A DNA stretch of 52,264 bases, from contig JACPPF010000051.1 of NCBI GenBank assembly GCA_016191165.1, positions 1 to 52,264 on the forward strand, read 5' to 3'. Position 1 is the first letter of the stretch. The number at the start of each line of letters is the position of its first letter. Made by a program: the position numbers and the translations under genes. Positions 46,730-48,516 of the stretch are shown here, piece after piece. The notes beneath the pieces are model-generated. The model was not told where the DNA came from. It did no database searches and saw only the letters and a program-made list of their open reading frames with translations. This stretch comes from Planctomycetota bacterium (GTDB taxonomy: Bacteria > Planctomycetota > Planctomycetia > Gemmatales > Gemmataceae).

Positions 46730-46787
46730 GGAACGTGATGGATTTACATCACGGTCCTTTTTGCGCTCCTCCCGAGGAGAACTTGTC

Positions 46788-47804
46788 ATGGGCATGCCAT
46801 TAGCACGAATCCTTGCCAGTTTTGCGTTGAGTGGATTGGTCGCGGGCGTGATCTTCGCCCAAGGTTCGTCGCGCACCGGCGGCGCCAAGACCACTGCGGG
46901 CAAACAGCGGCATTTTCTTTTCACCTATGGCGGCGCGGTAAAGGGGCTCACCCCGGGGACCGCCGCGAGGGTCTGGCTCCCCGTGGCAGTGGCGGGGCCC
47001 GAGCAGGTTGTTGCCATCCACTCCAAAAACCTGCCGGCGAAGGCGAAGGTTCACCATGAAAAACAGTACGGCAATGCCATGATCTATTTTCAGGCCAAGG
47101 CCAACGCCAAGGGGGAGATTCCCTTCGAGATCGTCTACGATGTCCGTCGCAAGGAAGTGAAGACCGACCTTGCCGCCAACGCCGTGCTAAAACCGTCGGC
47201 GAAGGAAAACGTGACGCGATTCTTGCAACCCGATAGCAAGGTGCCGATCGCCGGCAAACCCCTGGACCTTCTCAAAGACAAGAAGCTGCCTGGCGACCAG
47301 TTCGCCGCCGCCAGGGTGCTCTATGATGTCGTCAATGGCCACATGAAATACAGCAAGGTCGGCAAGGGCTGGGGCCGCGGCGATTCGGTCTGGGCCTGCG
47401 ACAGCAAGTTCGGCAATTGCTCGGACTTCCACAGCCTGTTCATCTCGATGGCCCGCGGCAACGCGATTCCCGCCAAGTTCGAGATGGGCTTTCCCCTTCC
47501 TTCCAAACGCGGCGAAGGCCCGATCGGCGGTTATCATTGCTGGGCGTGGTTCTTGCCGAACCAAAAGGGCTGGGTTCCTGTCGATATTTCCGAGGCCAAT
47601 CGGCATCCGGATTTGAAGGAATACTATTTCGGCAACCTGACGGAGGACCGCGTCCGCTTTACCACGGGCCGCGACATCAATCTGCAACCGCCGCAAGAGG
47701 CCGGGCCGCTCAATTTCTTCATCTACCCGTATGTCGAAGTGGCCGGCAAGACGTATCCGCAAGAGAGCATCACGCGGAGGTTTGCGTATCGGGATGTGAA
47801 GTAG
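46788..47804 (+). CDS. Exported transglutaminase-like protein
   Basis: 338 residues from ATG 46788 (GAGGAGA 7 nt upstream). Signal peptide (LASFALSGLVAGVIFAQ), a beta-rich N-terminal domain, then a transglutaminase-like core with the Cys-His-Asp triad visible: FGNCSDFHSLFISMAR, GGYHCWAWFLP and WVPVDISEA. Members act as proteases or cross-linking enzymes outside the cytoplasm; target unknown. It converges on the selenoprotein gene, separated by a hairpin. Confidence 0.9.
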   Translation: MGMPLARILASFALSGLVAGVIFAQGSSRTGGAKTTAGKQRHFLFTYGGAVKGLTPGTAARVWLPVAVAGPEQVVAIHSKNLPAKAKVHHEKQYGNAMIYFQAKANAKGEIPFEIVYDVRRKEVKTDLAANAVLKPSAKENVTRFLQPDSKVPIAGKPLDLLKDKKLPGDQFAAARVLYDVVNGHMKYSKVGKGWGRGDSVWACDSKFGNCSDFHSLFISMARGNAIPAKFEMGFPLPSKRGEGPIGGYHCWAWFLPNQKGWVPVDISEANRHPDLKEYYFGNLTEDRVRFTTGRDINLQPPQEAGPLNFFIYPYVEVAGKTYPQESITRRFAYRDVK

Positions 47805-47844: not shown

Positions 47845-48516
47845 CTACTTCTTTTTGAAATTGGTCTGCAACCACTTCTCCACTTCGTTGACGCGGAAGC
47901 CGCGCGGGCCGGGGCCGCCCTGGTAGGCGATTTTCCCGTCGATGCCAATGATGTAGAGTCGATCCGGCCAGGCGCCGTAGGCGGCGTTGACGCGATTGTC
48001 CTCGCGGTCCAGGAGCGTGGGCATCGTCATCTTGAGCGTGGCCATGCACTGCTGGGCGTTTTCAGCGCGCTCGGTGACGGTCTGGGTTTGCTTGACCTTG
48101 AGCAGCTTCTTCTCCCCTTTTTTGAGCGTGAGCAAGATCGAATCGGGGTGGGCCTCGCGAATGTAAACGAGGAAAAACTCGGCTCGATCTTTGTAGGTTT
48201 GGTAAACTTTTTCGAGGTAGCCAGACTGGCTACGAAAGGGCGGTCAGGTGTAGCTGCCAAAGATCAGCACCACCGGTTTCTTGCCGCGGAAGCTGGAAAG
48301 CTTCACTTCCGTGGATTTTTTCAGGTCCGGCAGCGTGAAATCGACGGCCGGGTCGCCGGGGCGAAGGGTGGTGGATTTGCGTTCCCCTTTCGCGGCCGGC
48401 GTGTTGATTTCACCGTTTTTTCCCTTCTTCTTTTTCTGTGCCCGGCCATCCGCCGGGAAGGCTAGCGCCAGGGTCAAGCAGGCCAAAAAGGTTACAGGCC
48501 GAGAGTAAAAGTGCAT
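47845..48516 (-). CDS. Iodothyronine deiodinase-like selenoprotein (in-frame TGA = Sec91)
   Basis: 223 residues if TGA 48244-48246 is read as selenocysteine. Signal peptide (VTFLACLTLALAFPADGRAQ), Lys-rich linker, then a thioredoxin-fold deiodinase domain: PAVDFTLPDL, KPVVLIFGSYT-Sec91-PPF, FFLVYIREAH (His123), and WPDRLYIIGIDGKIAYQGG with RVNEVEKWL at the end. In the vertebrate enzymes the same places read FGSCT-Sec-PSF, YIEEAH and LPERLYII, so TGA sits exactly at the catalytic position. No frameshift; both halves share one frame. GAGGTG lies 6 nt before ATG 48516. A SECIS-like hairpin follows the TGA. The natural substrate in bacteria is unknown; it could be a dehalogenase or a thiol peroxidase. 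The selA/B/C/D genes are not in the window. The alternative is a nonsense mutation of a Cys codon. Confidence 0.88.
48217..48233 (-). promoter_or_regulatory. Putative bacterial SECIS hairpin
   Basis: On the minus strand GTAGCCA-GTC-TGGCTAC: a perfect 7-bp stem whose loop starts with G, 17 nt after the TGA. CUUU upstream can pair with AAAG downstream to extend it. The geometry (apical loop 16-37 nt after UGA, G in its first two positions) agrees with the bacterial SECIS rule, and AGUCU at the tip resembles the GGUCU tip of E. coli fdhF. Confidence 0.7.

Follow-up and report, generated by a model that had tools for sequence, protein, structure and literature searches.

The first report of prokaryotic deiodinase-like selenoproteins with a bacterial SECIS dates from 2005 and concerns the Sargasso Sea (PMC1088965); a 2026 review lists them too, with UxxC as the family motif (PMC13188914). 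The limits given there for bacterial SECIS elements (bSECIS) are an apical loop of 3-9 nt, an upper stem of 4-16 bp, an energy of -7.5 kcal/mol or lower and 16-37 nt between the UGA and the apical loop, with a G within the first two loop positions (mostly G, then G or U). A paper of 2006 describes SECIS-like remnants that follow Cys codons (PMC1794560). Full Sec-insertion gene sets are known in Planctomycetes, i.e., in Gemmata obscuriglobus, Isosphaera pallida and Porphyra isolates, according to the available part of PMC4807772.

The gene considered here resembles those of the Sargasso Sea (PMC1088965): it is a deiodinase homologue, it has Sec and Cys forms and it carries a predicted bacterial SECIS. 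It belongs to Gemmataceae (Planctomycetes) and its motif is UxxR, whereas the PF00837 family of PMC13188914 has UxxC. It comes from the phylum with full Sec-insertion gene sets, but it is not reported in the available part of PMC4807772. Compared with bSECIS in general (PMC13188914), the site in the coding region just after the UGA, the 3-nt loop starting with GU, the 7-bp stem, the 17-nt spacing and the energy limit are alike. No difference in kind is observed; the stem sequence is particular to the gene family, as is usual for bSECIS. The mechanism and the type of selenoprotein are already known; the present comparison adds a clear record of covariation and loss for one such element.

The hairpin at positions 48233-48217 (minus strand) of the window, i.e., the whole stretch of 52,264 nucleotides that was analysed, is predicted with a probability of about 95% to be the bacterial SECIS of a deiodinase-like (PF00837) selenoprotein gene (Table 1). 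It is the comparison across homologues, and not the single sequence, that settles this identity.

Table 1. Predicted features of the deiodinase-like gene and of its hairpin (positions of the window).
Feature	Position	Strand	Basis
Putative deiodinase-like selenoprotein gene, 223 aa, Sec as residue 91 (SYT-U-PPFR)	47845..48516	-	translation with TGA read as Sec
In-frame TGA, predicted Sec codon	48244..48246	-	TGA in 42 homologues, Cys in 43
10-nt spacer from TGA to stem, CCGCCCTTTC	48234..48243	-	sequence
5' arm of predicted SECIS stem, GUAGCCA	48227..48233	-	covariation with 3' arm; fold
Apical loop GUC, first position G	48224..48226	-	sequence; loop rule of PMC13188914
3' arm of predicted SECIS stem, UGGCUAC	48217..48223	-	covariation with 5' arm; fold

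The reading frame goes from an ATG at 48516 to a stop at 47845 and contains a single in-frame TGA. The encoded protein matches PF00837 (T4_deiodinase, iodothyronine deiodinase, thioredoxin-fold) with an E-value of 2e-30 and 106 bits, i.e., far above the gathering cut-off of 27; the AhpC-TSA and Redoxin profiles match it too, more weakly than PF00837. The nearest solved structures by sequence (phmmer) are a type III deiodinase (4tr3, E 7.6e-22) and a type II deiodinase (9h48, E 5.4e-21). Against NF038285 (NCBIfam deiodinase family protein) the score is 180 bits, below the curated cut-off of 250, and by these profile scores the predicted selenoprotein is related to that family but outside it. 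The N-terminal 26 residues or so look like a signal peptide and the protein is probably secreted. This bacterial deiodinase-like protein would have a redox role. A transglutaminase-core gene (46776-47804, plus strand, PF01841, E 1.8e-18) is convergent to the selenoprotein gene; it also adjoins it in L016, L017, L018 and L084 (68-76% identity).

On the minus strand the TGA is followed, in this order, by CCGCCCTTTC, GTAGCCA, GTC and TGGCTAC. The hairpin coordinates and base pairs proposed by the sequence-only reading are right for that strand. Its distance of 16-17 nt after the TGA holds for the apical loop, which lies at 17 nt, but not for the stem, which starts at 10 nt. The claim that the distance and loop rule of bSECIS are respected is borne out, and the hairpin lies within all five published criteria: (i) a loop of 3 nt, GUC; (ii) a stem of 7 Watson-Crick pairs; (iii) a G at the start of the loop, the closing pair being A-U; (iv) 17 nt from UGA to loop; (v) an energy of -8.5 kcal/mol for the hairpin alone and -10.3 for the 53-nt fold. 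When this 53-nt stretch is folded as RNA the stem is formed (MFE -10.3 kcal/mol, z -2.07), and 7 of 200 shuffled sequences fold equally well. A scan of Rfam at a permissive threshold gave no match to the hairpin; Rfam may hold no general bacterial SECIS model.

Chance hairpins of such quality had been held to be unlikely, which is too strong for one sequence. With the loose bSECIS rule, 5.1% of the 30,000 positions sampled in the window have a hairpin of at least equal stability (-8.5 kcal/mol), as have 75 of 1446 TGA trinucleotides. Precisely the observed combination of 7 Watson-Crick pairs, a 3-nt G-first loop and 17 nt was met at 1 position in 30,000. Given the background of 5%, the hairpin of one sequence cannot be called improbable by itself, and the evidence from the single sequence is moderate. 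As independent support for Sec decoding the hairpin of one sequence is thus not strong, while the comparative evidence is.

Homologues were searched across the family, the order and the class, and 85 distinct ones were kept after removal of duplicates. At the TGA site 42 have TGA and 43 have a Cys codon, i.e., the predicted Sec aligns with the Cys of the non-seleno homologues. When the contigs were scanned with the protein of the window, the one useful near relative was L084, which duplicates L016 here; the other matches were two distant redoxins. Covariation was calculated on a gap-free alignment of 31 TGA homologues chosen for a shared register. In these 31, 95.4% of stem cells are paired, a percentage favoured by the choice; the values are 84% for all 42 TGA homologues and 35% for the 43 Cys homologues. 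When the partner is slid by 1-3 columns, pairing among the 31 falls to 34-49%. Three of the 7 pairs are changed on both sides, in 36 cells (mean of 16.3 for shuffles; 0 of 500 reach 36), and the covariation score is 0.446 vs. 0.140 for shuffles. Two other counts for these 31 homologues do not exceed those of shuffles: the 3 pairs with any two-sided change, and the 10 pair types. RNAalifold, used unguided, predicts exactly the GUAGCCA/UGGCUAC stem.

Since the shuffle test is inflated by relatedness, the tree was relied on as well. At the third pair, L015 and L016 (A-U, Ser..Tyr) are nested with strong support in L017 and L018 (C-G, Arg..Asp). Within the genus of the window a C-G pair became A-U, with Arg..Asp changed to Ser..Tyr. 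L019 is also A-U at this pair, outside the supported clade of that genus. Each switch between C-G and A-U needs two amino acid changes and keeps one base pair.

Of the 42 TGA codons, 31 are followed by a SECIS-like hairpin that reaches -7.5 kcal/mol, vs. 5 of the 43 Cys codons (Mann-Whitney p of about 1e-9, rows not being phylogenetically independent). The covariation in UGA forms and the loss in Cys forms by which a bacterial SECIS is recognized are both found. The sequence-only reading had exposed itself on these points, i.e., a stem not conserved among TGA homologues or equally common after Cys codons would have told against it. Neither is the case: the stem is conserved with compensating changes in the TGA homologues, and pairing is much lower after Cys codons.

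Among the 11 TGA homologues that fail the simple contiguous-stem energy rule, three are bulged (a bulged form of the stem is seen in the Sec homologues L045, L025 and L049) and others are in another hairpin register. In most Sec homologues the loop of the stem (GUC, GUU or GGC) is at 17 nt. Eight Sec rows form a supported clade, L027 and seven others (L028, L029, L031, L032, L038, L050 and L089), and in these seven the best SECIS-like hairpin has its loop at 21 nt, i.e., 4 nt further downstream. The loop of these shifted hairpins has 5 nt, mostly GGTCA, and the whole is mostly CTCGGTC-GGTCA-GATCGAG. The chances are evenly balanced that the SECIS moved within the gene family, being rebuilt at a new register (17 to 21 nt) without loss of Sec. 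This shift is a lead and not a result, because the global fold of L028 differs from the shifted hairpin. In L088 the stem is weaker and a TAG lies in frame in addition to the TGA; this gene may be decaying, or its assembly may be wrong.

The predicted decay of the stem upon replacement of Sec by Cys is seen in L023, L053, L095 and L040. One Cys homologue is found among the closest relatives, L023 (58% identity, genome G050): its codon is TGC, 5 of 7 pairs remain and its best SECIS-like energy is -4.8. In G050 (95% complete) there is no SelB over threshold, no tRNA-Sec match and no SelD over cut-off. In genome G040, which has SelB, two neighbouring paralogues of contig C49 can be compared: the stem of L054 (TGA) is intact, that of L053 (TGC) keeps 3 of 7 pairs, and the tree puts L053 inside the Sec forms. 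Neighbouring pairs of homologues are also found in G043 (contig C39) and G093 (contig C31). Two more Cys forms that the tree puts close to or inside Sec clades, L095 (5 pairs) and L040 (4 pairs), have no SECIS-like hairpin over the limit.

Codon usage was compared between the stem and the rest of the same genes in 11 close TGA homologues. The Arg codon of the stem is CGT in 11 of 11 (13 of 112 elsewhere) and its Ser codon is TCT for all 10 serines (0 of 70 elsewhere), while the Pro, Leu and Glu codons immediately outside the stem vary. When the same peptide is recoded synonymously, -8.5 kcal/mol is reached in 16 of 20,000 trials, so that the codon choice, and not the peptide alone, makes the stem. 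Most close homologues give 1-4 of 3000 (61 of 3000 for L087). These results bear on the best surviving alternative, i.e., that conservation of the protein (R-x-Q-S-G) produced the hairpin incidentally and that the SECIS is another structure downstream, the TGA still encoding Sec. The peptide around the stem is indeed conserved, and about 5% of positions have a comparable hairpin by chance. Nevertheless this explanation is very improbable: besides the rarity of the stem under recoding and the TCT and CGT codons frozen inside the stem only, the paired amino acid changes (S..Y, R..D) preserve the base pair and the stem is not kept in Cys homologues.

The identification as a SECIS is in agreement with the content of the genomes. 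Of the components by which a Sec-decoding genome is recognized, tRNA-Sec (73 bits, anticodon UCA), SelA (560 bits) and SelB (362 bits) are present in that of the window. For SelD, no match over cut-off was found in the assembly (95% complete, 183 contigs); since it is present in 6 of 6 congeners, a gap in the assembly is the likely cause. The selD gene of several congeners itself carries a TGA in frame. The partial SelD-like match L105 is not taken as SelD: its 58 bits are below the cut-off of 125, and matches of similar size occur in nearly every genome searched, beside true SelD where present. It looks like another member of the SelD superfamily, perhaps a thiamine-monophosphate kinase. The TGA form occurs in 26 genomes of the order; SelB is found in all of them and tRNA-Sec, with a strict filter, in 23.

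It is less probable still, and hardly credible, that the TGA really ends the protein, or that it arose by a sequencing error or as a pseudogene lesion, the hairpin having no recoding role. The genome is a draft assembly and L088, with its additional in-frame TAG, may be decaying. The same TGA is however found in 42 homologues and in 26 genomes of the order, and the deiodinase domain (PF00837) is completed by the part 3' of the TGA. The dN/dS vs. L016 is 0.04 downstream of the TGA and 0.13 upstream, and vs. L018 it is 0.05 for the downstream codons, values which point to purifying selection on the coding sequence on either side of the TGA. A standard gene caller would stop such a gene at the TGA or begin past it, hence a risk of mis-annotation.

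Stem-loops behind stop codons can raise readthrough, and the hairpin could be a general readthrough or pausing stem with the TGA decoded by a non-Sec tRNA (e.g., Trp or Cys); this is just as hard to credit, since the codon alternates with Cys codons only among the aligned homologues, tRNA-Sec(UCA), SelA and SelB are present in the genome of the window, and neither SelB nor tRNA-Sec was found in the close Cys genome G050.

With the hairpin read as a bacterial SECIS, and by analogy with the known mechanism of E. coli for both the binding of SelB and the insertion of Sec, translation would proceed as follows: (i) the ribosome would arrive at the UGA (48246-48244); (ii) the stem-loop just ahead in the mRNA would hold SelB with GTP and Sec-tRNA-Sec(UCA); (iii) SelB would deliver selenocysteine at the UGA instead of release factor 2; (iv) the ribosome would then unwind the stem and translate it as coding sequence (RSQSGY).

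For the gene family, G050 amounts to a natural experiment, as a genome in which no Sec machinery was found and whose homologue has TGC with a broken stem. The comparison of sequences alone shows that the predicted SECIS is selected as RNA inside a coding region, the cost being paired amino acid changes.
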